From Chondrosia reniformis (taxonomy: Eukaryota > Porifera > Demospongiae > Chondrillida > Chondrillidae), in assembly GCA_947172415.1 (NCBI GenBank), contig OX359194.1, forward strand, positions 5,766,001 through 5,830,000: a stretch of 64,000 nt of DNA, read 5' to 3'. Each line of letters opens with the position of its first letter. The first letter of the stretch is position 1. The notes under the pieces are model-generated. The model saw only the letters and a program-made list of their open reading frames with translations. It did not search any database and was not told the DNA's origin. Shown here piece by piece: positions 27,828-55,600 of this stretch. Made by a program: the position numbers and the translations under genes.

Positions 27828-30800
27828 ATGGCTGATGCTAAAGTCAAGCTGCATGAAGCACACAATATAAAGAAAGAACAAAACCTCTTTGAGATACCAA
27901 AGCAAACGCCTTCAAAGTATAAAAGTTAGTCTGCTTGTATGGATATTGCTATCATGAGGTTTTTTCATTATTGCTGCTTTAGGGCAAAGCCTTCTTCCCT
28001 ATACAATATTGCAAAAATAAGAATTTACAGCTGTTTCTTGTACAAGTGTACATACAGTTTTATATATTGTAAATACAATCTTAGTGATTATATATAATTA
28101 TCATTTTGATTATATATACAATTGGATCCTGTATATACGTATGTAGCTGATAAGATCTACCTTCTAAGGATTGTTACTGGCAGTAGGAGATTGCTTTCAG
28201 CTACAGAATTGAAAATTCAAGCTCAGCTAATAGGCACTATCAAAACTACAAAGAAATTTACACTTGCAAGTGTTACAGACAAAGTGTTTCAAAAAGATGG
28301 ATATGATGACTTCTCAATCAAATGTGACAAGATCGGCAGTGTAATTGGTGTTTGCATCTATGTTGAATCATGTAAGCTCTGTATATACGTAGTATACAAG
28401 TACGTAAGATAAAAACATTTCAAAAATGAACTTAAAAATGTGGCAGATCTTGAAAAAGTAGTGAAACAAGAAAGTGATCATGTAATCAAGCTAACCATAG
28501 CTAGCATACCGAAATTTAAGTGACTTATAACCAAACACATTACTTCTATATCTTGCTCCTATAATAATTCTCTAGTGAAATATTGACACTACATATATGG
28601 ATAACAAAATACATAAAAGTATTAGGTTAACATCCAAGTTATATATATTGCAGGTTCTAAAAGCTGTCTTGAGTGGTTCTTAAGCTGTGCGGTGGTCCAG
28701 GCACCTGGTGATGCCCCCTGTTTGTTTCCGGGATACAAATCCTTAATTGAAGGCGATCAAATACTTTTGATGTCATCTACGGGTAAGATGTGACATTGTA
28801 TCAGCAGTATGAAGCCCACTACATATGAAGCATATGAAGCAGTCCTGCCAGTTATGTATACTTGTAGTCACTGAGTGTTAGGTCTGGAACCCTTTCTGCA
28901 GGTTTGGCTAACGATTTGCTAATCACAAGCCACAAACACTTTCGTAAGCTAATCAAAGAACAAATTAGCTGGCAAAGGCAGCAATATGTGTGGAAGTGTC
29001 TCCCATCTCAACCTAGTACCCTTCAGGAGGTTAGATATGACCTTGCACTGGATAAGCACTCATCAGATGGTCTCATTGAACTATCCAAAATTCAACAACT
29101 CAAAGGGGACCATACAAGCTTCTGCAGTTTTGATGAATTCAGAAGTGCTATTAACTCAATTGAGTTTGGTGCCAATAAGCCTGATATACTGGATGGAGGG
29201 CTGTGGATACAAGATAGGGAATTTGGCCGTCAAATGTTAAATGGAACTAACCCAAGTGTGATTAAGCTTTGCGTTGAATTACCAAACCACTTCCAAGTAA
29301 CAGATGCCATTCTCCAAGGCTTGCTGACCAGAAGCTGGACTTTAAAAACAGAAATGAAGGTACACTGTGAATGGTATTGGTTATGTGTGTGTGCTCTGAG
29401 TATAGTAAAGTGCATGTCTAGATCTACTTTAACCAATGATTGCAATATAGTGTGTATTATATGTGACTTATTGACATCAGCAACATTTACTGGATCAATT
29501 AACTGAACGTTTCGACCTGAAGGTCTTCATCAGCAGAAATATAAAGAGTTATCATAATGAATGAAACAAAGACCCCTTATCACTTCATATATATGTGTGT
29601 CCACCTAACCTAGAGTATGAACTGTATAACATTGTATAAAGTCTATATGTTTTCTTTAGGAAGGTCATGTCTACATAATTGATCACACTGAAATGCTGCA
29701 AGGTCTTTCCACACTGCATGTTTGTCCTGTGCCCACGTGCCTCCTCTACATCACTCCCAAAGGACACCTCCTCCCAATTGCTATACAACTGGAGCCAAAG
29801 GGCGTAATCTTTACACCTAATGACAACTACTTTGATTGGCTGATGGCAAAAATGCTTTTCAGATGTGGAGACTGGCAAGTAAGTCAGTATGAATCCTGAT
29901 ATTGATGATAACAGGCTTTGTATATTTCAGTACTTTGATCAATGTATGATTTACTGCACCTTTAGATACATCAGCTGATTCAAAATTATCTTCTGACACA
30001 TTCTGTGGTAGAGCCATTTAGTATTGGGCTCAAGCGAAATCTACCACTCAACCATCCAGTTTACCGTCTTCTAGTTCCCTATCTCTCACACATTGTGTCC
30101 AACAATGCCAAAATCCGGAAGTACTTGCTAAATCCTGGAGGGCTCTTTGACAAGGTCACTTCAATTGGAGGTCGTAATGCAGAGAGTATTATAGGAGCAA
30201 TCAAAAGAGGTTACAAAGGTTTTAGCTTCCACAAGCTGGCTCATCCAACGGACATAGAGTTACGAGGGGTAGGGAATGAATCAAAACTTCCCAATTACCA
30301 CTATCGTGATGATGGAATGCTCATTTGGAAAGCAATCTCCAAAATGGTTGAGGGGATTCTCTCCATTTTTTATACAAATGATGAAGATGTCTCTGGGGAT
30401 GAGTATTTGCAGGCATGGGCTAAGGATGTCTGTGAGAATGGTCTCCCAACCAGTGATGGCTCAGAAATAGGTCATGGCATGCCACCTGCCATCAATACTC
30501 AGAAGGAGCTGATTGATATTGCTACTACAATCATTTGGATTTCCTCTGCAAGGCATAGTGCAATCAACACAGGGCAGTATCAGATTCATGGCTTTCCTCC
30601 CAATTCTCCTGGATTGATAAGGAAGTCTCTACCCAAAGGGAAGGGTATGGCAACTTTACAAGACGTATTGGCAACCCTTCCAAATAAGGATGCAGTTTAC
30701 TGGCAGCTTGTGATCATGGAAACGTTATCACAGAAAGGCAGTAGTCAGGTAACTGTATTTTACCAAAAGCCATGAATTTAGTTATATGCGTTATATCCCT

Positions 30801-38636: not shown

Positions 38637-40332
38637 CTATGACAAAAAAGTTTCTATTTCTCTTGCAAACCCCTTGTTCATGCCAGTAGTGTTAGGGGCG
38701 GTCATAAGTGCAGAAGCAGCTGATTGAAGCGTCTCTACGGCTGGATCATTACGAAGACACTGATACAACAGAGTGTTAGCATCATCCACACTCAGTACAC
38801 TATCCATTTGTTGACGCTGTCCTGCTTTTATGACGTTTCCTCGCTCCAGATCAAAACGTATAGCTTTTGCATCACAGAATTTGATATGGCTCTCCATGCT
38901 CTGGTCCAAGAAGGCTATTACTTCTGGAGGAGTTTTCTTTTTTGCTAAATTTGTTAAACCATAAAATGATCATTTTCTGTATCTGTTATCATTTTTCCAT
39001 TGGACTCAGTTATATAAAAGAAAGTGACTTACCTGGTTTGGTGGATTCGGCTGGTTTGGTGGATTCGGCTGGTTTGGTGGATTTAGCTGGTTTGGTGGAT
39101 TTGGCTGGTTTGGTGGATTAGGAGAAAATAATTAAGACTAAATTTTGAGACAACAACCGTATATATATTTAGGCAAATTAAAAAGCTCATACACTCAGAG
39201 GATATCAGATCAATCTGGAGTCATAATTGTGAATGTGATGAATTAAAATGTAAGCATGGAAGAGACTTACTGCCAAATCATTATTATAATAACCTTTTCT
39301 TTATATAGAATGTACTGTCGATTTGAAGTACGTCAGTAGACTAGCTACCCAGGGGATATGGGATGAAGATCTGAAGTTAATCAATCTTTTAATGAATATA
39401 GATTAAGCAGACTACACTGCTGAAGATAATCACTGCTGTATAAGTACAAATTAATGTTAAAGAAACTGCAACTAATTCATCCACTGAGATACAATTGCCT
39501 CAGCAATGCTCCATTCACGCTTTCCTCTTACACTAAAATAGACTAAGTCTCTATTCCAACGCTACTTAGTGGGTGATGCTCGATCTTTGTCAAATCAAGC
39601 TGATAATCTAGACTCATTTCCAGTGGGACGGGACGTTTTAACCATTTGCTCGCTGGCCACCATCAACCACAGGAAAGAATTTATCAGCTACACTTGACTC
39701 ATAATAGTATTCATAGCTATGGTCTTATGACTCTGCTGCATCATAGATATACGACTCCTTTATCTATGGCTGCATACCAACTTACCAAGGAAGGCCACCT
39801 TACGGAACACTAACGTATACACTAACATTTGCAATGTGGTATTACTAAGTACTTGTGATCTACCATTTCCGTACATACTGACCTATGAATTCCCCCTCGA
39901 GAAGTTCTGCTTCTGGTCTACAGCTTCGGTCTACTAGTGTGTCAAACAGAGTTTTAACTGTTCTCGGCCTGTCTCCGGTACCGTTTTCTTTTCGAAGCCA
40001 TTGCCTAAGCATGTCTTTCATACGATCTTTTGGTCTATTCGAGTTCTCAGAAATGTTATCCAACGTATTAATGTGAAATCCAAGTGCTATACCGATATCT
40101 TCCCATTTGCCGGGTACTTGATCGATAATGCATCTTTGAAGGATGGTCAAGTGATCGTCAATTTTTAGTTCAGTCCTGTAGTATAGGATCAGAAGCTTTA
40201 ATTCGCAAAAGAAGTGAATTAATTTTTAAATCGCATAATCATATATACAAGGACCTTATGATCTATTATCAGACCTTAAGAATTGGGATCTAGCCAGTCG
40301 CAAAAAGAAAATTATAATCTAACTCACTCCAT
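38637..40332 (-). CDS. Death domain + CARD-like adaptor protein
   Basis: Four exons, 225 residues: 40328-40332, 39883-40175, 39033-39104 and 38637-38944; phases agree. The first exon holds only ATGGA. Residues about 3-99 form a Death domain (DDHLTILQRC, KWEDIGIALGF, MLRQWLRKEN). A linker of six-residue STKPAK/STKPAE repeats follows, encoded by an 18-bp minisatellite. Residues about 124-225 are a helical, CARD-like death-fold module (KFCDAKAIRFDLE, QRQQMDSV, MNKGFAREIETFL). The same module begins both nucleosidase genes that follow on the same strand. By family logic it is a cytosolic adaptor: the Death end binds an upstream receptor or kinase and the CARD-like end binds a partner, plausibly those nucleosidases. 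No catalytic domain is present. CARD is my fold-level reading from the helix pattern. Confidence 0.85.
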
Positions 40333-40700
40333 TTAGGCAGCTAAGAATTTCCTTCTTGTACGATCCAGCCGTTGAATGATCAACTAGAAAAACCACACGG
40401 GTGGGTGTGTCGATGCGTCTCATAGAAGAAATTATCGATTTTCATGCATGCAGATTATCGGTTGCTTGATTGCAAGCGTTGTATAAAACATACCTTTGGC
40501 CCAATTCAACTTTACTTAAATTGTTTAAAAACTTTCTAAACTACCTTGCAGGTTAATTTCAAAAGATACATGTCATTTTAATTTTAATAATTTAATTTGG
40601 AAGGGTAGGCCTATATATAAACTCGGAAACGGGGAAAACTGGTACCTTTTGAACAGCTGTTAGTTCTAAAGGAGTGACTGAGTCATGCTATATATGAGAG

Positions 40701-41265
40701 ATGCTGGAGGCCATTGCTTGGAGGAAAACGCGGGAGGAATGGGGCCAGGAGATGAAGACAAAGCCTAAGTTGGAGATACTGAAGAGGATTGTGAAGTTGG
40801 GAGAGTGGTCGGAGTGTGCGAGAGTAGGGAGAAGAGCGGACAGGAGGATGATGATAAAACTAAGAGGAGGCACGGCAGGATTTCAAATCGAGACGGGAAG
40901 ATGGAGGGGGTGACCAGACAAGAGAGAATATGCAAGGAATGTGACAGGGGTGAAGTGGAAGACGTGGAACATTGGTTGATGAGGTGTGAAGCATGGAAAT
41001 CCCAACGCGTACAATTGGAGGCCTGGATGCAACGACATAGTGACAAGTGCAGTACCCAGGATTCTACTGCAACTCTGCGTGTAAGGCAACTATGAACTCT
41101 TATTGACTATTTTGTGTATGTGGCATGCAAGGTTCAGTTAGCTCTATTTTGCATATTCATATTATTTATTTTGCCTTATTGAAAGTGCTGCATGGGGCCA
41201 ATCTGTGCTCTAGTGCCAGTGGGCACGGTGCACTCTAATAATAATATTGATTGATTGATATGTTA
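40701..41265 (+). mobile_element. LINE retrotransposon 3' remnant, frameshifted
   Basis: C-terminal end of a LINE-type ORF2. KLRGGTAGFQIETGRW reads in one frame. After a shift near a G run at about 40905 it continues in another frame as VTRQERICKECDRG and VEDVEHWLMRCEAW, the zinc-knuckle-like Cys/His tail seen after LINE reverse transcriptases. A stop follows at 41095. The 3' end is a short ATTG/TGAT simple repeat, as many LINE tails are. A shorter 3' piece is repeated at 45218-45455. The reverse transcriptase core is absent, so it is a dead copy. Confidence 0.75.
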
Positions 41266-41571
41266 ATTTGAAACCTGAGATTTGGTTCTGTGGCCCATCA
41301 TCATTTATAATTAGCAGATGGTGGTTCTTACCTAACATTCAGAGCATGTTGTATTATAATGGGTTAAAAATAATAGCAATTGCATTAATCCAATTCCAGT
41401 ATTCAAAATTCCCCAGCATGCCCCCCTCCACCACAAGAACAAAAATTAATGAACCATTATTATAAACAAACTACAGTTACTAACTCTAACAAAGGTTTAG
41501 ATACACTACAAACTATTCTGTGTTATAAACTATAGTGTCAAGTTCTAATCTTTATTTTTAATTGTTATGGT

Positions 41572-44500
41572 TCACATATGTGTGGCTATGGCTCTGCACA
41601 CAAGAGCTGTGGACTGCAGTGTTGCTATCTCTTGCCGCTTGTCATCATCTACAGGTTCAGTTTGCTTACCAAGGAACAAGGTAGATTGAGGTGCATTCTT
41701 GTCAGAACCAGCATGGTCTGATACTCCCTTTACAATCAGGAAATCTTTCTTAGTCAATGTTCCTGGCAGTTCACGTTCATTTTTTTGATGTAAATTGTGT
41801 GCAATGCCCCACCCTTCCATTTCAATGCCAACCAGTTTCCTGCTTCCACGAAGGTCTTTTGCGACCTTTTCATTCTTGATTACCAGTCCTCCAGACAGAA
41901 TACAGTCAGCCCTTTTAACCTTTATAACCGGACTGTCGGCCTTTTCTTCACAATGCAACACCCTTTGACTCCATTGGTTATTCATGTCACGTGCAACTTC
42001 TTTGGCAATAAATTCATCCTTCTCAAGTTTTCCTGCACTAATATCTACCAGTGTGTCAGAAATGAGTACATAGCCACGACAGATTTCATCTGAAGAACAT
42101 CCGCAACATCCAACACAGAATATCATCTCAAGAGGCCATTCCTTCATTTTAGCTTCTTTCAATATCTTATCAACCGCGTCATCTGCACTCTTACCCCCAT
42201 ACTGGTAGCTGCACTTCATATGAATGCCTTGAACGTCGCCTATCTCAATCAAATCATAATCGAAGCTGCTTCTCGGGTTGTCTTTGTAATCCTCGGTAAA
42301 TTTTGTCTTCCCTTTCAAAGTGGGCTCCTTATGATAGCTGTAATCTTCATCATTTTCTTTAAAAAAGTGCCTCACGGTCTTAAATTCCATATCATTTGCA
42401 GTCAAAAGGACAAATTTTACTATATAAGTATTAAATATGTATAATAACAATTAGAGGTATAATTTAAATATCACAACTGGCAAAGAGAACTGTTGACTAT
42501 AATTCTCATTACATTTGAAGAGATGTTCAATACCTTTAATATTGCTGTAATTCCACAACCCAAAAAAAGCACCAAAAGATCCTAAAAGGACAAATTTTAC
42601 TATATAAGTATATAAATATGTATAACAATATAGGCATGTGTTAGATTATACGGACACTATACTAGAAGATGGATCAAGCGACAGACTAAAATACATATAT
42701 CAATTATATGTCATACTTTGTTTCTAAAACAAGCAAGAAACCAACTTCTTATACATTAAGCAAACTTGATAGTATGTCCGGAAACATAATGTGCTAGTCA
42801 GCAAAACATATCTCCAAATTAAAAGGGGCTGTTAAAATTTGGAACCCGTGAAATTAATCTATTAGCGCACACTTGTATGAAACCTGAAATCTAATCCTGT
42901 GAAAATGACCAAATGTTCTTGGGGATCTCTTTGGGACCCTGCCAGTGTCTTTATTATACTAATCCTTTTTTGAATGTCAAACAGTGATCACCTCCCAGTC
43001 AACCATAAGTTTAAGAAATCATTAATTAAAAGAACCATAGATAGCTTGTTATTCTACAAACCTATTGGCATGCAAGGAATGCACACAGACAAACTGTCCT
43101 ATAATCATACTCTGGCTTGGCACTAACTAATAAGCCTGCCCATTTGCATATATGCTATGTACGCACCTTATGTACTATATATTATATAGGTAGGTAGGTA
43201 TGGGTAACCATAATTTTAATATTGTAACAGAGACTAACTCCAAAGGCTCACTGTCACTATCCATACATACATACAGGTTATGTATAGGTTAACCAGGCAT
43301 TTTGATCAAAGACTCAACTGGTCTCAAAATTGAATGTAGGGGACAGTAAAATGTTTTGAATGTTAGTAAGTGGAGTATAAATAAGTCTAATAATTCTATG
43401 TGGCTACAAACCACAAATAAATGAATATCTGAGTTGTAGTTTCTTTCTTGTTTTTGCACAGACAATTACATGAAATTAAAGCATCTAGGCATGAAAAGTA
43501 TTTATCTTATTATATCTGATAGTGTATAGCTATAATACCTACCTCATGATCATGAGTACGTATAATTATTCCCCTTGAACAAATAGGCTGGCTAAATATA
43601 GGCATATCCGTACATACACCCAGGACCTTAACCCCATAAAGGTTATGGGAATGGAATTGGAATTGCTATCTAATCATATTCATTGAGTAGACACTAAAGT
43701 GTATTCATTAAGTGAGTACAGCTTGAAGGCAGTCCTACCTTCACAGGGGTTCAATGTTTTGTAAACAATTATTACAGTAACAGTATTAGAGGTATAATTC
43801 AATTATCACAACTGGCAAAGAGCTGTTGACTATAATTCTCATTACATTTGAAGAGATGTTCAATACCTTTGGTGGGGGGTGGCTGGTCCTGTTGAGGAGG
43901 TCCTCCTAAAAGGGACACTTAAATTAAGTAATTCAACAATGTGGTAAAGGTAATTTCTTACCTTCAGGGTTTCCTCCAGAAGACTCTGGTTGAACAGTTG
44001 TGGTTCCTTTACATGATGCATAAAAACAAAATACATGCAATGAAATAGCAAGAATTTCTGAATTTTGCAGACCATAATTATATATATTCAGTTAGCAACT
44101 GAAATATGTATATGGTAGAAACTGCAATGGCCTCTGCAAATTTCTTGTTCATATTGGTAGTGTCAGGAGCAGTCTCAAGTACGTCAGCAGCGGCTAGAAG
44201 AGTCTCCAGAGTTGGATCTTTGAGAAGAAACTCCCTAAACTTAGTATTAGCTTGAAGTTTATTTTGACAGTCATCCAATTGCTCTTCATCTATGACTTTC
44301 TTAGTTTCCAAAGCAAAACGTATCTTTTTAATATCGCAGTACTTCAGATGAGTTCCGAAATGGTCATTTACGAATTTCTTGATATCATCTGGATTTTTTT
44401 CTAAATTTTACATTTTACACAGACATTAAGTGCATATATACGCTGGAGCAATTTTTAAACAGATTTTGAACTACACTGAATGGCCTATATTAGAGTACCT

Positions 44501-44922
44501 TTAGACCCCCCCCCCCCCCGAATGTACTCGAACTACTTGGCCGAATCGTTGGGCTTTGATATATACGTTATACGGCCCCAACCTTGCTACATATCTCCAA
44601 CCATCATGGTTTTACCCAGAGCCCAATGATTCCTTAGATACTCAAAAGGACAAAAGGATGGTCGAGCCATATAGACAGCTGTTTCGTCTTTATTAAATAG
44701 GACTTATCAGTACGACTATACATATTTCCAGGTGTAAAATAACTATCAGCGACGCCTACAAAATTGAAGTATGTATAAGGTCTGGGCTATCTGCAGTCCT
44801 AGGGTGGCTTCACTGTTATAATTATTAACAGACAAATAAGCAGGATCAAATAATTAATGTGACTATATAATCAAGGTGCGTGTTCAATGGAGAAAGAAAT
44901 GGTTACGCATACCTGCCATCAT
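41572..44922 (-). CDS. CARD-like + nucleosidase protein 1, probably impaired
   Basis: Paralogue of the gene at 45761-49352. Exons: 44913-44922 (start ATGATGGCAG), 44078-44400 (CARD-like), 43962-44006, 43867-43905, an extra one at 42534-42581, and 41572-42419 (nucleosidase). The nucleosidase part is fully open, with GCCG, ECR-like GLVIK, VGIEMEGWG and KGVSDH, which line the active site in PNP_UDP_1/MTAN enzymes. The CARD-like exon is damaged. Compared with gene 2 it lacks about 10 bp carrying the splice donor and 2 bp that cause a frameshift after FAEAI. It then reads AVSTIYIF on to a stop at 44078. So it may now make only a CARD-like protein, or be a decaying gene. The extra 48-nt exon is in phase and absent from gene 2. 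Confidence 0.75.
44505..44575. repeat. C-homopolymer and dispersed repeat
   Basis: A run of about 13 C is followed by CGAACTACTTGGCCGAATCG, the inverted match of the element at 38285-38380. It lies in intron 1 of nucleosidase gene 1. Confidence 0.75.
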
Positions 44923-45037
44923 TTTCGAATATATACTCTAAACAAGGGCTAGCTGAACAACGCTGACTAGCTTTCTCCTACGGTGGAAAATAGGTGAACT
45001 ATTCCTCCTACCATAGATTATATATGCTCCTACGGTA

Positions 45038-45045
45038 TGACGTCA
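45038..45045. promoter_or_regulatory. CRE/ATF palindrome, nucleosidase gene 1
   Basis: TGACGTCA, 116 bp upstream of the start codon at 44922, conserved at the same place in the paralogue. Confidence 0.55.
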
Positions 45046-45760
45046 TACCTACCAATTTTGTTAATAATAAATAATAAATAAATCACAATTGAAGTTGCCC
45101 CCTTTACGACCTACTTTCTGAGCTGCTATTACAAGGTCAAAGACCTGCCTGAGGTCCCTCTTGTTGCAATAAATGATTTCTCTACATTACTGAGACGGAG
45201 TACATTAATGTTCAAGATTGGAGGCCTGGATGCAATGACATAGTGACAAGTGCAGTACCCAGGATTCTACTGCATCTCTGCTGTCAGCTGCGTGTAGCAA
45301 CTATAAACTCTTATCGATTATTTTGTGTATGTGGCATGCAAGGTTCAGTTAACTCTATTTTGCCTCATTGAAATGCTGCATGGGGCCAATCTGTGCCCTA
45401 GTGCCAATGGACATGGTGCACTCTAATAATAATAATATTGATTGATTGATTGATATGTTAATTTGAAACCTGAGATTTGGTTCTGTGGCCCATCATCATC
45501 TAGCAAATGGTGGTTTTTACCTAATATTCAGAGCATGTTGTATTATAATGGGTTAATAGCAATTGCATTAATCCAATTCCAGTATTCAAAATTCCCCAGC
45601 ATGCCCCCCTCCACCACAAGAACAAAAATTAATGAACCATTATTATAAACAAACTACAGTTATTAACTCTAACAAAGGTTTAGATACACTACAAACTATT
45701 CTGTGTCTCTAAATTAAACTATAGTGTCAAGTTCTAATCTTTATTATAACATGTTATGGT

Positions 45761-48700
45761 TCACATATGTGTGGCTATGGCTCTGCACACAAGAGCTGTG
45801 GACTGCAGTGTTGCTATCTCTTGTCGCTTGTCATCATCTACAGGTTCAGTTTGCTTACCAAGGAACAAGGTAGATTGAGGTGTATTCTTGTCAGAACCAG
45901 CATGGTCTGATACTCCCTTTACAATCAGGAAATCTTTCTTAGTCAATGTTCTTGGCAGATCACGTTCATTTTTTTGATGTAAACTGTGTGCTATGCCCCA
46001 CCCTTCCATTTCAATGCCAACCAGTTCCCTGCTTCCACGAAGTTTTTTTGCGGCCTTTTCATCCTTGATTACCAGTCCTCCAGACAGAATACAGTCAACC
46101 TTTTTAACCTTTATAACCGGACTGTCGTCCTTTTCCTCACAATCGTACACCCGTTGACTCCATTGCTTATTCATTTCACGTGCAACTTCTTTGGGAATAA
46201 ATTCACCCTTCACAAGTTTTCCTCCACTAATATCTACCAGCATGTCAGAAATGAGCACATAGCCACGACAGATTTCATCTGAAGAACATCCGCAACATCC
46301 AACACAGAATATCATCTCAAGAGGCCATTCCTTCATTTTAGCTTCTCTCAATATTTTATCAACTGCGCCATCTGCAGCCTGACCCCCATAGTGGTAGTTG
46401 CACTTCATATGAATGCCTTGAATGTTGCCTATCTCAATCAAATCATAATCGAAGCTGCTTCTCGGGTTGTCTCTGTAATCCTGGGTGAATTTTGTCTTCC
46501 CTTTCAAAGTGGGCTCCTTATGATAGCTGTAATCTTTATCATTTTCTTTAAAAAAGTGCCTCACAGTCTTAAATTCCATATCATTTGCAGTCAAAAGGAC
46601 AAATTTTACTATATAAGTATATAAATATGTATAATAACAATATAGGCATGTATTAGATTATACGGACACTATATATATATACTAGAAGATGCATGGATCA
46701 AGTGACAGACTAAAATACATAATACATACAACATCAATTGTATGTCATACTTTGTTTCTAAAACAAGCAAGAAACCAACTTCTTATACATTTAGCAAACT
46801 TGATAGTATGTCCGGAAACATAATGTGCTAGCCAGCAAAACATATCTCCAAATTAAAAGGGGGCTGTTAAAATTTGAAACCCGTGAAATTAATCTATTAA
46901 CACACACTTGAGCACCCTTTGAAACCTGGCTGTTCAAGAAGTTTCAAATAGGTTTCATGCCATAGGAAACCTGAAATTTGATCCTGTGAAAATGACCAAA
47001 TGCTCTTGGGGACCTCTTTAGGACCCTGCCAGTGTCTTTATTATACTAATCCCTTTTGAATGTCAAACAGTGATCACCTCCCAGTCAACCATAAGTATAA
47101 GAAATCATAATTAAAAGAACCATAGATAGCTTGTTATTCTACCAAACAACCTATTGGCATGCACGGAATGCACATAGACAAACTGTCCTACAATCATACT
47201 CCAGTGTATTAATAACTAATAAGCCTGCCCATGCAGTGGGAAGATGGACAGCCCACATCATGTATAAACTGTAAAGTAGTGTCTATGAACCCATATAATA
47301 ACTGGTACATAACTACATAGTTTCTGAAGCCAGGGAAGCTGATTAGCATGCTCTGGGCAAGACAGTATCACTTGCAATTGGTTGCAAATCAAGGTCTCAG
47401 TGCAAGGACATTTCATTTGCATATATGCTATGTACGTACCTTATGTACTGTATATATTATATACGTAGGTAGGTAGGTAGGTAGGTATGGGTAACCATAA
47501 TTTCAATATTGTAACAGAGACTACCTCCCAAGGCTCACTGTCATACTATCCATACATACATACAGGCTATGTATAGGTTAACCAGGCATTTTGATCAAAG
47601 ACTCAACTGGTCTCAAAATTGAATGTAGGGGACAGTTAATGTTTTGAATGTTAAAATTCATAGTGAGTGGATTATAAATAAGTCTAATAATTCTATGTGG
47701 CTACAAACCACAAATTAATGAATATCTGAATTGTAGTTTCTTTCTTGCTTTTACACAGACAATTACATGAAATTAAAGCATCTAGGTATGAAAAGTATCT
47801 TATTATATCTATATATTATAAGTGTAGCTATAATACCTACCTCGTGATCATGAGTATAATTATCCCCCTTGAACTTAGGTATATTACGTACATACACCCA
47901 GCACCTTAACCCCATAAAGTTTATGGTAATGGAATTTGAAGGGCTATCTAATCATATTCATTAAGTAGACACTAAAGTGTATTCATTAGGTGAGTACAGC
48001 TTGAAGGCAGTCCTACCTTCACAGGGGTTCAATGTTTTGTAAACATTAAGTAGACACTAAAGTGTATTCATTAGGTGAGTACAACTTAAAGGCAGTCCCT
48101 ACCTTCACAGGGGTTCAATGTTTTGTAAACAATTATTACAGTAACAGTATTAGAGGTATAATTCAAATATCACAACTGGCAAAGAGCTGTTGGCTATAAT
48201 TCTCATTACATTTGAAGAGATGTTCAATACCTTTAATAGTGGTGGTGGGGGGTGGCTGGTCCTGTTGAGGAGGTCCTCCTAAAAGGGACACTTAAATTAA
48301 GTAATTCAACAATCTGGTATAGGTAATTTCTTACTTTCAGTGTTTCCTCCAGAAGACTCCGGTTGAACAGTTGTGGTTCCTTTACATGATACATATAAAA
48401 ACAAAATACACATGCAATGAAATATAACAAAAGTTTCTGAATTTTGCAGACCATAGTATATTATATATTCCGTTAGCAACTGAAATACGTATATACCTTC
48501 CGATAGTAGAAACTGTCTAATGGCCTTTGCAAATTTCTTGTTCATATTGGGAGTGTCAGGAGCAGTCTCAAGTACGTCAGCAGCTGCTAGAAGAGTATCC
48601 GGAGTTGGATCGTTTAAAAGAAACTCCTTAAACTTAGTATTAGCCTCAGTTTGAGTGCCACACCTATCCAACTGTTGTCTTTGATCTTTATTTATGACTT

Positions 48701-49352
48701 TCTTATTTTCCAAAGCAAAACGTATCGTTTTAATGTCACAATGCTTCAGCTGATTTTGAAAATGGTCACGTACGAATTTCTCGATTTCATCTGCATTTTT
48801 TTCTGAATAAGATGGAATTTACATTTTACACAGACATAAAGTACATACACATGGAGCTATTCAATCCAATTATTCTAAAGTAGAATTTTTTAACAGATAT
48901 TTGAACTACATTGAACAGTGGCTTTGTGTGCCTATTTGTCATCATTATAGTTGCTAAAATAATAGTAGCGTATAGAGATATACAGGTATAGCTAATGTAC
49001 GATTATACGGCCCCAACCTTGCTACGTCACTCCAACCATCATGGTTTTACCCATTCATGATTCATGAGGAGCCCAATGACTCCTTTGACACTCAAAAGGA
49101 TGGTCGAGCCATAGACAGCTGTTTCGTCTTTATTAAATAGGACTTATCAGTACGACTACTTACTTCCAGGTATAATAGAAGGTAGGCAACTACAGCGACG
49201 CCTACAAATTTGAAGTATAAGGTCTGGGTTATCTGAAGTCCTAGGGTGGCTTCACTGTTATAGACAAATTAGTAGGACCAATAATTATTAATTAATCAAG
49301 GGGTGCGTGTGCTCAATGGAGAAAGAAAGCAACGGTTACGCATACCTGCCAT
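45761..49352 (-). CDS. CARD-like + nucleosidase effector protein 2
   Basis: Five exons, 417 residues: 49346-49352 (ATGGCAG only), 48497-48802, 48335-48379, 48231-48278 and 45761-46608; phases agree. Residues about 3-104 are the CARD-like module shared with the adaptor at 38637 (KHCDIKTIRFALE, QRQQLDRC, MNKKFAKAIRQFL). A Thr/Ser/Pro/Gln linker follows (two small exons). Residues about 136-417 form a nucleoside phosphorylase/nucleosidase domain: LLTANDMEFK strand, FCVGCCG phosphate/base loop, VGIEMEGWG (ribose-binding Met-Glu) and KGVSDH (catalytic Asp). All key motifs are present, so it should be active on a nucleoside or nucleotide; which one cannot be told. Enzymes of this superfamily act as ATP- or purine-cleaving effectors in bacterial antiviral systems and are fused to receptors in fungi. 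A death-fold-recruited effector is my inference. Confidence 0.88.
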
Positions 49353-49623: not shown

Positions 49624-52600
49624 ATGGCTTCTGAAAGAGGTTTAAGATCCGCACCCAATGTTGTTCCTTTCTAAATGGACTATTTATCTTCTAGTAAGTA
49701 CTTGTATAAGTGAATATTTAAGTACGGCCTTCAAACTCTGATAGCTTTATCCTTCTCTTCTATTGTTAACTCAAGTACAATCATTGGAGAAGCTGTTAAT
49801 GACGGTATCTCTTAAACAGAGAAACTACGATGGACCTAGTTTATCCGTTCAAATCCGTGAATTGAATCAGTTGGCAAGGGTAGGCATGTGTGTTGGTAGC
49901 ATGGACGATCAAATATGTGCGTCAACAATGGTAGCCTCTGTTGGTTGTTGCTCAATATAGTGCAATATAAGTGCATATATGTGCAATTCACATTTTGAAT
50001 TTTATACGCGTTCTCAATGTAGGTACTGTATATGGAGATTTTAGTGGTAAACTGTACAATGTCATTTGCTGTACGATAAGGCCCGTATGTGACTTTTGCC
50101 AAACTTTCTTATGCAATAAGAACCTATGTACCTAAGTAACAGTGTAGTGTTGCTTATAATACAGTACTGCAATAATAGTTAAACTGAAGCATAGTTAGTT
50201 GAGTACCAAAGTGTTGCTCATTTTGGAAACATTTTTAGGTACTACACGCAGGTTGGAATTTATAAAATGGTAGAACACACTAACCACAAGTGTTCTCCTA
50301 GAATACAGTATAAGAAATGAAAAGTTAAATTGACTAAAAAATTTGTACTGGTAATTGTACAATGAAATGGAATAATTTTATTGAATGATCTAGGTCCTTA
50401 AGGGGACTCAAGTCAAATTGAGTATATAACAGTTACATAAGGACTTTAGAATCATATTTTCTCTTCATTTCATTTCACAGGTTATTAGGGAGCTGTCAAG
50501 CGGTGTGTCTGAGATAAAATATGCAACTAGTATTGTTAAAAGGTAAATTTGCCAATGTTATTGTCTACTTTTATCTAACAAATTGATACTATTTTATCTG
50601 TAGACATTTGAGTGAGTATATTTATTTGTTAATTAGCATGCAGTATATTTATACTTGTTAATTAGCATGCAGTATATTTATACTTGTTACCTAGCATGCA
50701 GTATGTATTAATGAGTAACATTCAAGAGATCAGAGCTGGTGGTATTCGTGTGTTGAGGTACATTCTGATGTCTGAGGAGGTTTTGGATGTGATGTTGAAG
50801 CATTGTATAGATCTGCTCATTATAAGGTATCTTTCATATTCCCTGTATTCCATGCAACTAAAAGTTTCAAATATGTATGTTGTACAACGGGGCCTACTGT
50901 ATGTGTTGTACATAATTACCCATGCAGAACCTTTATAATATCTCGTATGTCTTACTTTATTGTACTGATGATCTTTATACGTACTTATTGATACTTGACT
51001 ACTCCTATTACTCTCTCCAAACGTACAAATTACATGTCATGGCTCTTAATATTTAAGACTAAGATCTTGAAGCTTTGAATGTCAAATTATTAGATTATAA
51101 GTAGATTTGCCTATCCAATGAAGATTTCTACTTTATAAGAGATAAGAATTAACACATCCTTATATTACCATGTGGAGTTTGTGTGACTGCTCTAGTCAAA
51201 AGTGTAGAAAATGACACTTCTTTCTCCATTTGGGCTTGCTATATATACTTACTACAGGTCCTTAGAATTGTCCAATCAGAGGGAAGTGGAGAGAATGCAG
51301 GCGTTAAGGTTCATACAGCAAGTTAGTGATCACTTTTGGTTGTGTTGCAATCGGATGCTTACATAATGAAATAGGGATTCCTTCCAACTGTGTCAAACAT
51401 ATGTATGTATGGGTACATCGTTGACTCTTAATTTTTGAGCAGTTTGTTTGGTTGAACTTTTTACCCTGATCTTTTAGCTACTGTACAAATATATTCAATC
51501 TATGTTAAAATTTCAATTAGTGAGAATATATGTATATAATTAGATGTCTATATGTACTTTCATATTTTATGGACGCCATTTTCTTATTGCTCTTATTGCT
51601 CTCTTTACTCAAAGGTGATTGTTGTGGCTCCAAAGAAATTTCCTGCTAGTCTTGCAGCCATTTTGGTTTCCATAACAACCGGTGACCCAGATATTTCTGA
51701 TAGTACTACACTTGCTTGTACAGGTCTTCTCTGTCAACTGAGTGAGTATTTGTGTCTAAAGCTCTAAATTAGCCATATGTGTGTATTAAGAATATATACT
51801 ATAGATATACCCAGATCTCATGGCTGATAGCAACCAATTGGTTGTGGTTTGATAATTTGATTGTGGATTTTTTCAAGAGACTCAGTTGCATAGAGCTTAA
51901 AATTTGATGGTTTAGCCTTATTGTGCTGTATGTACGTACGTACATAAAGATTGTAATTGTCACTTTTCAAACTGTTCCTTTTCACTAAGTTTGGAGGTAG
52001 ATATTGACCAATAGCTTCTTTTAGGGGTTGGGAATGTCTCCTTGAAGAAAAAAAATTCAATCAATAAAGAAACATTGAACTGCCCCCTCAAAATTTTACT
52101 ATAATGGTGATATTTTCTAAAATACATTTTATATAGTACTATATACATAAAATGTATTATATAGTACTATGTATATAATAATGTATATAATGTAGTATTA
52201 ACCACTTTGCTTTGTTTCTGAATGTGCTCTGTACCTATAGCACTGGCTAATGTTCCTCTGGCTGTTGGTTGTGGGGCTGTCAGGGCTCTCTCACGGAGAC
52301 TGTTACAGTGTCAGAACGCACAGCTAGATGAAGGAATTGTTCTGATCCTGCTTAACCTGTACAATCATTCTGATACCAGGAGGTACACCAGATTGAGTAA
52401 TGACCTAATGTTGTTCCTAGCGCCTGTAACAGACATTCACTATGAACACGAGGTAACAGGATGGGAGGATGCTAAGAAAATCAACTTCAACACCGGAGGG
52501 TAACTGATATATACATACATATAAAAAGTACTTGATAGTGCCTTTAAGGAATAGCAACATATAGCATATAGCAGGACAGGTTTTAAGAGCTAAATATGGT

Positions 52601-55600
52601 TGTCATACCTTTGAATCTAAGAAAACATAAGAAGAATAGACTAAACCACAATTTCTAATTACCAACTTAGGGAAGACCTACCTTAGTGACCCCGGGAGTC
52701 TTCACCTTCATCTTGATCTTTTTGAGTCGGTAAAGTACATTTTTCTGATTGTTGTCACTTGTGTGTGTGCGTTGTTATTTGATTCATGAGGCACTTGACA
52801 TTAAATAGCCTTTCCTTTATAATTGATTAATAATCATGAAGAAGTGAACTCTACATCTTTTAAATGGTGTTTCCTTGCATTAGATATGTCAATACTCATA
52901 ATGCAGAGATACAGATGAGAGTGGAGTGTTGCTGCTTAGCTCTGAGTGCAATACTGAAGTCCTGGCCAGGTCTGATGTGTCTGGTTAGCACACACCAGAA
53001 GGGGTCAGAGAAAGGAAAGTGCCCCCTGGCAGCTCTTGTGGAAGTGTTACCACTTGCGTCTGATCAAGCCAAGGTCAGCGATATATGTACGTAGTACATA
53101 TCTGATTAATATAAATCCCCCCGATACCCTGTACAAGGATTATCAGGAAATACTGTACGCTTCAAAGGAAATAAATTTTGCTGTTTTCATGGATTTTGTT
53201 CAAATCATGAAAATATATACCTCAAAACTGTATTTTATAGACCACGTGTCTATTTTTTGCAAAAACTATGAAAGAGCTTTTCCATGAAAATAAACCCTTG
53301 AAAGTTTCCCGCTATATGACAAAGTTAAGAGAGCTAAGAATTAATGTAAACATGGGCTCAAAGTGGTATTCTCTGTAGAAGTGTGGAATGCACCTTTATA
53401 ACTTTAATGTCTTCTTTTGTTATTTCATGCAGACTGAAGTCCTGGAGATGTTTTTCACTGTATTTCAGCTGAGAGTGCCAACCCGGACAGACCAACACAG
53501 TGTAGGACTGGCCAGCATTAGTGAGGAGACCCTCACCACATGCCACATATTGTAGTAGTTAATGTCTTGGACCTACGTACCGTCACCTTTTAATTTGTAG
53601 AGATTGTTGCCTTAGTCTCTTAAATGGTTCTAGATTTTCAATTTTCTTTACCCATCCTACTGATGCAAATCAGATCTTTACAACATCTCTTAATTTTGTG
53701 AAAGAATTGTACAAAGTGAAGAGACTTGCCAGTAGTTCAGCATACAAATTAAATAAAAACTTTTAAAATTGAAGTTAGAAGTACGTATGAATGACAGGTC
53801 TGGAAAAGTATCCAAAAAGGCATTAAATTCTAATAAGCCCATTTCACAGCGTGTGTAGGAAACTGCTGTAAAGAGCATTGTGCAACAGTTAATGCATAAC
53901 GGGTAAGATACAGTAACTTTCCCTTTTGTTGAAGGTTCGCAGGAACCACTGTCATCTTGGGCTCTGGATGAAGGATTTGTGGTTGAAGAAGCTCGAGTTC
54001 TGCTTCCTCCAGTGACAGCCAAACAGATTGACCTTGTCAAGTGCTACTATGCTATGCTCCTCTCTGTACTCATTGAGCTGGGCCTCTTTACATCGCTCTC
54101 CAAAGTGGCAATTGCAGAGAATAAATTTCTCTCAGTTAGAGCTACAATACTATTAGGGGAACTGACCTATTTAGTGAGTAAACATTTGGTGCACTGAGTA
54201 TGTGTGGCTGTACTTTATAATATAAAAGTACATAGCTCTAAGTACAATTGCCATATGTATTGGAAAATGAATGCATGTGTCTAAAGACTGTGAGATTGCC
54301 CACTTCCGCACCACAATCTTTTGAAGCACATTGATTTGACACCTCAGTAATTCCACGAGGGATGTCCAGTAATGCCTCAGACTTTCTGGTATTAACTTAG
54401 TAATTCTATAGTTACTTGTGCATGTTTAGGTATTCTTAAGATACCCTACAACCAATCAGTATACTATATAAACAGATACTGTACTTATGATTTGTGTGCC
54501 ATATAGATGATGGCTTAAGTATAACAATAATGATTTCCCAAGACACTTAAGACCAATCCAATGAAGTAAAGTATTCTCAGAATACATAATAACATCGTAG
54601 TTCCTAAGAAAGTCTTAAGTACCCCATCAATCCAATGAAGTAAAGTATTCTCAGAATGCATAGTAACATCGTAGTTCCTAAGAATTCTTAGGAACTAAGA
54701 TGTTACTATGTATTCTGTTACATTTTTGTATTTATTCTGAGAATACTTTACTTCATTCCCCCTCATTCTTAGGAATTACGATGTTACTATGTATTCTGTT
54801 ACATTTTTGCACATATTCTGAGAATACTTTACTTCATTGGATTGATGCATGGGGTACTTAAGACTTTCTTAGGAACTATGATGTTACTATGTATTCTGAG
54901 AATGTTGTTTGAATGCAATCTATTACTCTCGTATTTGATTCCTCATATACAGTATTATATTTCTGCTCCTACTTATCAAACAAATTGTAGGTCTTGTCAG
55001 CTACGTATTAAAACTGTTTAATAAGTGTTGCTATAATGCTCGTGGAATCATCATATTCACAAATACCCAAATCATTTCATATACATACATATGTACGTAT
55101 ATATAGTAACTATGACTTGATAATCTTTTTATTTATTATGTTCTAATTTTGCCATTTTTGCATGACAGACTTGTATAAATGTTAAAGATTATTTTATTTT
55201 AATAACATATCTTATAATCTACGTAGGCCAATCATCTTCTACCGGGAATGTTTTACCAAGATATTCACGGTTTGCCAGAAATTGTACAAGCTGCCATGGA
55301 CTTTAGTGATCTTGAGAAACAAAAGTGAGTTCTGCTTAATAATAGTAACCACTTTTATGTTCATGATACACCATATAAAATATTATTGATGTATGAAACA
55401 CCAGCCATTCAGATACATATATGCCCTCCATTTTCTAATAAATTCCCCATTTCCTATTACATCACCTGCACCTAAGTACTTATGCATGTTCCATCAAACA
55501 CTACAGGTTTTGGCATATAGACAATAGACATTCAATTTTTCATTTGTTTTAAATTTATTACGCTCATCAAACATATGGGTTCATATAACATTTATTTATA

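Follow-up and report, generated by a model that had tools for sequence, protein, structure and literature searches.

A candidate death-fold relay ending in a nucleosidase: a CARD-nucleosidase gene beside a Death-CARD gene in the sponge Chondrosia reniformis

The stretch of the Chondrosia reniformis genome analysed here (64,000 nucleotides; contig OX359194.1, positions 5,766,001 to 5,830,000 of the forward strand; hereafter the window) carries on its minus strand a cluster of three genes, reaching from the ATG of G1 at 49352 to the stop codon of G3 at 38637. G1 (49352-45761) is predicted to encode a CARD module joined to a nucleosidase, G2 (44922-41572) is its tandem copy, and G3 (40423-38637) is predicted to encode a small Death-CARD adaptor; all three gene models are predictions from the genomic sequence. 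The arrangement of three neighbouring genes on one strand, described in an earlier note on this DNA, was confirmed. Relatives were sought in the whole genome (117,379,552 bases, 15 contigs), which the available text of its report gives as 117.37 Mb in 14 chromosomes plus the mitochondrion (PMC12181767). The parts of the cluster are as follows.

49346..49352, minus strand: G1 exon 1 (ATGGCAG), the predicted gene start, from its GT donor and the spliced reading frame
48497..48802, minus strand: G1 exon 2, CARD module; GT-AG, phase 1; homologue of the adaptor CARD
48335..48379, minus strand: G1 exon 3, linker GTTTVQPESSGGNTE; homologous linker exon in G2 and in the C7 and C11 loci, a similar one at C12 by eye
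48231..48278, minus strand: G1 exon 4, proline-rich linker; GT-AG, in frame
45761..46608, minus strand: G1 exon 5, nucleosidase domain resembling MTA/SAH nucleosidase (MTAN), and stop
44913..44922, minus strand: G2 exon 1 (ATGATGGCAG), tandem copy
44126..44400, minus strand: G2 CARD exon, end approximate, linker donor altered, without QRQQ
41572..42419, minus strand: G2 nucleosidase exon, reading frame and motifs intact
40328..40423, minus strand: G3 putative exon 1 (phase 0 join), the weakest part of the model; GT-AG, in frame
39883..40195, minus strand: G3 exon 2, Death domain; PF00531 above cut-off; donor GTCAGT
39033..39104, minus strand: G3 exon 3, (AKSTKP)n linker; GT-AG, in frame
38637..38944, minus strand: G3 exon 4, CARD module and stop

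The five exons of G1, separated by GT-AG introns, give in the spliced model an uninterrupted open reading frame (ORF) of 418 residues, in which the CARD module is followed by about 30 linker residues and then by the enzyme. G2 lies at a spacing of 4.0 to 4.4 kb from G1 and is 90.7% identical to it over 3165 aligned positions. The bin that contains most of the CARD exon has an identity of 0.86, most other bins have 0.88 to 0.99, and one largely non-coding bin likewise has 0.86; the value of 0.61 belongs to the bin with the start of the CARD exon, which includes the preceding intron. A scan of GT donors, with GC donors left aside, found three sites at the end of the G2 CARD exon and in the stretch after it, in phases 0, 2, and 2. 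A join to the linker exon requires phase 1; since no GT of this phase is present, the G1-type fusion is not made by GT-AG splicing of these exons, and the G2 CARD exon is probably not joined to the enzyme exon. The fusion of a CARD-like module to a nucleosidase, which the earlier note had seen in two genes, thus stands for G1, where the spliced model is intact, and probably fails for G2, where the donor phase is wrong. The QRQQ motif was in the same way ascribed to all three modules and is found in G1 and G3, with G2 reading EEQLDDCQNKLQ.

The spliced G3 model has 262 residues and consists of a short N-terminus, the Death domain, the (AKSTKP)n linker, and the CARD. Its Death exon matches PF00531 with 27.5 bits against a cut-off of 22.6 (E 3.4e-6, Pfam). 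The proposed fusion of one module copy to a Death domain agrees with the intact predicted model, in which two different death folds, Death by Pfam and CARD by fold, stand together in one small protein.

The modules of the three genes are homologous, as had been claimed, with identities of 72% between G1 and G2 and 43% between G1 and G3 (E 4.2e-18 in the genome scan). They have the six-helix fold of a CARD, which agrees with the description of the module as CARD-like; the profile check did not, as none of the three window modules matches PF00619 (CARD) in the Pfam scan. The identity of the module also finds no support in PADLOC (G1 exon only) or in a sequence-profile search of the PDB, and families missing from the VIA-align lists lie outside this result. 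Weak matches to Cas2 and TPR_EDRF1 were taken as chance. The family is large and dispersed in the genome (150 copies scored of 292 candidates; 18 of 23 relatives taken into the alignment), and its members overlap PF00619 places at seven positions, one of them over cut-off. When 18 genomic copies were compared with the three window modules, the adaptor CARD of G3 was closest to a NACHT-linked CARD (67%) and the G1 CARD to CARDs on chromosome 4 (C4; 70-73%). The module may assemble homotypically.

The GCCG, EMEG, and VSD motifs, said to be intact in both enzymes, are all present in the enzyme exons of G1 and G2, which were aligned with 29 of 30 relatives (P0006 left out). These exons do not reach the PF01048 cut-off (23.2 and 17.9 against 25.1 bits), and a sequence search of the PDB with the enzyme alone gave no match; a profile search of the PDB with the enzyme found MTANs, and the fold is the MTAN-like one of the PNP/UDP phosphorylase superfamily. 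Residues E201 and D234 align with the EMEG and SD motifs of MTAN, and E11 was placed from the sponge-bacterial alignment together with the numbering of MTAN. The catalytic Glu/Glu/Asp set is present, on an assignment that uses E12, E174, and D197, the catalytic residues of E. coli MTAN. As both the module and the enzyme fall under Pfam cut-offs, they were assigned from their folds, motifs, and bridging sequences. Five bacterial relatives were found, two of which are PNP-NB-ARC proteins, one of these with TPR repeats; they share with the sponge enzymes the catalytic residues and a Lys after the SD motif. In PADLOC, the enzyme exons show kinship to the defence effector PDC-M60C (E 2.5e-8 and 1.1e-7), and G1 reaches the PN-superfamily Effector model with E 0.016 only.

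That the enzyme is a metabolic nucleosidase, acting on MTA/SAH or in adenosine salvage, that happens to carry a CARD would suit its best structural matches, which are MTA/SAH nucleosidases, and its sole NCBIfam match, PRK05584 (MTA/SAH nucleosidase), although this lies far under cut-off (17.3 and 18.6 against 169 bits). We regard this as highly improbable in view of the kinship to defence effectors, the 22 genomic places that the family occupies with fast-changing recent copies, the CARD or Death exon that precedes the enzyme at G1, C12, and C11, and three other exons in the genome that PF01048 finds over cut-off and from which the enzyme is set apart. These three exons and the low PRK05584 scores led us to discard a housekeeping MTA phosphorylase or nucleosidase as the principal interpretation. 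The enzyme appears instead to be of the immune nucleosidase type and, judging from its similarity to defence nucleosidases, may cleave ATP.

The surroundings of related exons were counted for 23 of the 25 rows of the enzyme (the two omitted are the second halves of other places, and a weak one with E 0.078 is included), the best 79 of 127 Death rows, the scored module copies, 101 scored of 139 NACHT rows, 42 COR-A, and 19 caspase rows. A module lies within 4 kb upstream of the enzyme in three of the 23 rows, G2 among them, and most copies have no detected module upstream. The five Death exons closest to that of G3 (80-100% identity) are in the window and on chromosome 7 (C7) near 510k, 536k, 572k, and 599k, and each is flanked on its own strand by an enzyme exon on one side and a CARD exon on the other; the window unit and the four C7 units are copies of one unit. 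One C7 copy (L044) has a 4-base insertion in its adaptor CARD exon, and no intact CARD exon was seen in the 2.9 kb upstream of its enzyme. The four C7 adaptor CARDs were matched in one piece only over query residues 4-57, with one separate second piece; by these signs, none of the C7 units is as well preserved as that of the window. At C7:508k-603k two enzyme-adaptor pairs recur about 63.0 kb further on, with enzymes that are identical in one case and only 86% alike in the other, which reflects either recent segmental duplication accompanied by conversion or an effect of the assembly.

Two exons at C12, for a CARD and an enzyme, are 50% and 49% identical to those of G1 and follow in the same order, and the linker between them resembles that of G1 (GTTFKDESSGAS vs GTTTVQPESSGGN, by eye in a partial gene model). 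A Death exon at C11, with 55% identity to that of G3 and a Pfam Death score of 21.6 bits (slightly short of the 22.6 required), takes the place of the CARD before the homologous linker exon GTTTVQLKSSRENTN and the enzyme; these exons are in frame if joined without exon 4, and their start was not found. The same locus contains, between linker and enzyme exons, an ORF resembling reverse transcriptase/GIY-YIG (L051, C11:2022333-2023385), by eye probably a Penelope-type element. C8 has a CARD-Death gene (PF00619 19.4 bits, below cut-off; Death 41.8 bits) upstream of a seemingly separate enzyme gene; a small ORF between the two, with its own ATG and stop and no Pfam match (L052:2071-2406), is possibly a single-domain death-fold gene. 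At C1, an enzyme exon has a Death exon (39% identical) 4 kb downstream of it, and at C7 2.68 Mb (L053) no death-fold exon was seen by eye in the 6 kb upstream.

Adaptor and enzyme may be neighbours only through duplication and shuffling of death-fold and enzyme exons within the same regions, with the CARD-nucleosidase recruited by CARD-NACHT or COR-CARD proteins and the Death-CARD gene serving another pathway. The size and dispersal of the CARD family, the 63-kb repeat spacing and degenerate units on C7, and the closeness of the G1 CARD to C4 CARDs downstream of COR-like ORFs (among the copies compared) fit this explanation, yet Death exons occur near the enzyme also at C11, in same-gene order, and at C1 and C8, in differing orders, and we consider it rather unlikely.

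The degenerate copies raise the further question of decay. Among recent enzyme copies, the ratio of nonsynonymous to synonymous substitution rates (dN/dS) is 0.87-3.56 in 13 of the 14 close pairs with any difference (because L026 and L027 are identical, two of these pairs are duplicates); the exception is L030/L031 (0.56), and the distant pair G1/L030 gives 0.19. Diversifying selection was considered and dropped, as the pooled ratio of nonsynonymous to synonymous changes (at least 90 to about 24, or 3.75) falls inside the neutral range of 2.1-5.0. In five enzyme copies, an identical sixth being left out, at least 114 changes have produced no stop, an outcome of 0.3% of simple neutral simulations, and with the pooled ratio within the neutral range this lack of stops is the sole argument that the substitutions offer against decay. 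Decaying copies or inactive decoys would accord with the broken G2 junction, the frameshift in the C7 adaptor, and the dN/dS near or above 1 between most recent copies; with the catalytic residues kept and the G1 and G3 models intact, we think such an outcome very unlikely. The enzyme has been kept open while changing fast, and positive selection is not proved.

NACHT places provide candidate receptors, which the earlier note had not included. A module copy lies upstream on the same strand within 4 kb at no fewer than 25 of the 101 NACHT places, with none downstream and none antisense, and the Death family behaves alike (at least 20, 0, and 0); at 10 kb the corresponding upstream, downstream, and antisense counts are at least 26, 1, and 0 for the module and at least 22, 2, and 0 for Death. 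At L054 (C6:238400-242400), a module exon precedes the NACHT domain (93.8 bits) by about 1 kb. NACHT proteins with the same CARD and Death families would be the most natural upstream partners of the cluster. Some sponge NOD-like receptors (NLRs) without an identified N-terminal domain have been called NLRX, in a paper whose main text does not include Chondrosia (PMC12909245); the Pfam-missed CARD family, upstream of about a quarter of NACHT places (at least 25 of 101), may explain some of them, and surveys of sponge NLRs based on PF00619 may undercount CARD-type NLRs.

None of the 19 Pfam caspase exons has a same-strand module within 10 kb (one has an antisense copy), which fits the proposal of a nucleosidase in place of a caspase. 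That the module family serves caspases too is unsupported by these exons, though one module copy adjoins a caspase-like ORF. We also noticed that CARDs at L005-L007 (C4:1665k, 1701k, 1710k) and L012 (C3:1767k) follow long ORFs that look like Roc-COR C-terminal regions by eye; the C4 CARDs of this set are the ones closest to that of G1. In Pfam, the upstream ORF of L006 has no match and that of L012 matches COR-A with E 0.11 only, and a COR-CARD scaffold is possible at these loci. Of the 42 COR-A places, 4 have a module within 10 kb on the upstream side and 4 on the downstream side; with equal counts there is no directional signal.

Taken together, we lean slightly towards an inflammasome-like sponge death-fold relay that would end in a nucleosidase. 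NACHT/NLR-type proteins with the CARD family or the Death family of the adaptor upstream of NACHT would oligomerise when triggered; receptors of the Death type would bind G3, a candidate bridge between receptor and effector given the domain families in common, and its CARD would seed CARD assembly, while CARD-type receptors could seed it directly, the adaptor being optional. The G1 protein would then be drawn in and its MTAN/PNP-fold domain activated, to split ATP or another adenine nucleotide between purine and ribose, by analogy with bacterial defence nucleosidases, and the loss of nucleotide would starve or kill the infected or stressed cell. Parts of this relay that can be seen are the predicted architectures, the CARD fold, the nucleosidase fold and catalytic residues, the exchange of CARD and Death before homologous enzyme exons, and the same families upstream of NACHT. 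The nucleosidase could alternatively make a signal, the released base or modified sugar acting as second messenger, as the available text of Kaur et al. 2020 proposes for PNPase domains of conflict systems (PMC7159879); the bacterial Detocs PNP effector is described in a review as cleaving ATP itself (PMC11249213), and we hold a signalling product to be quite unlikely.

Several observations weigh against the relay. The fusion is intact in only one of the two supposed effectors, the four C7 units look degenerate (L044 from its sequence, the other three from partial matches), and a sub-threshold caspase-like ORF stands upstream of a module copy at L013 (C3:1055k; PF00656 17.4 against 21.4 bits). 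Moreover, CARD-NACHT or COR-like proteins might just as well recruit the G1 CARD with no part played by G3, which keeps our confidence in the relay only a little above even. The earlier idea of an adaptor-nucleosidase signalosome replacing a caspase is partly supported, by the CARD fold, the immune-type enzyme, the recurring Death and CARD exons, and the 19 caspase exons without a same-strand module, and is weakened by the single intact fusion and the C7 units. A wider version, offered tentatively, is a caspase-free inflammasome analogue in which NLRs with a Pfam-invisible CARD or Death domain would recruit, either on their own or by way of Death-CARD adaptors, ATP nucleosidases tagged with a CARD or a Death domain, in a system marked by phase-1 exon shuffling and fast change.

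If the relay is true, a single genome would tie nucleotide-depleting immunity of the bacterial type to the death-fold signalling of animals, with a sensor, an adaptor, and an effector that can be taken apart, and the executioner of an animal death-fold signalosome would be an enzyme of the kind that bacteria use against phage. The cluster and the NACHT-linked CARDs give a concrete list of proteins for testing.

Beside the cluster, on the opposite strand, lie N-terminal exons of RICTOR (50666-54197, plus strand; PF14664 in three ORFs, one under cut-off), and a lipoxygenase domain exon occupies 29966-30775 (plus strand; PF00305, E 7.6e-50).

The small two-death-fold adaptor recalls ASC, RAIDD/CRADD, and FADD, with Death and CARD together as in RAIDD; G3 has the reverse order, Death then CARD, and its neighbours encode a nucleosidase and not a caspase. 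In fungal NLRs with PNP_UDP, the PNP domain is fused to the receptor in an immune-type protein, whereas in the sponge the roles of receptor, adaptor, and effector appear divided among separate proteins. A PNP-fold effector attached to a signalling domain is also found in bacterial immune PNP/ATP nucleosidases (Detocs, CBASS, and NLR-like effectors), for which Rousset et al. 2023 is reportedly the primary paper as regards Detocs; the sponge case would differ in its animal host and recruitment by CARD/Death, with ATP cleavage here a likeness-based expectation. PNPase is counted among the effector-type domains of bacterial conflict systems in the accessible part of Kaur et al. 2020 (PMC7159879). 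Closest is the sponge Amphimedon, with 357 TRADD-N proteins in a lineage-specifically expanded set, most architecture types of which, in the available text of Kaur et al. 2021, have N-terminal Death-like domains and variable C-termini including PNPase (PMC8195603). In both sponges a Death-superfamily domain is joined to a PNPase effector, but the Amphimedon proteins carry TRADD-N between the two where G1 has its linker, and no TRADD-N match was obtained with Pfam on the six window exon ORFs scanned. The Amphimedon set, as described there, also differs from the window, where a CARD-PNPase gene stands beside a separate Death-CARD adaptor gene (PMC8195603). Such a linked pair was not reported in titles and abstracts among the matches listed, supplements and most subscription papers being outside this scope. 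The CARD-PNPase with its linked Death-CARD adaptor would thus appear as a variation on the known themes of death-fold-PNPase proteins and PNP effectors.

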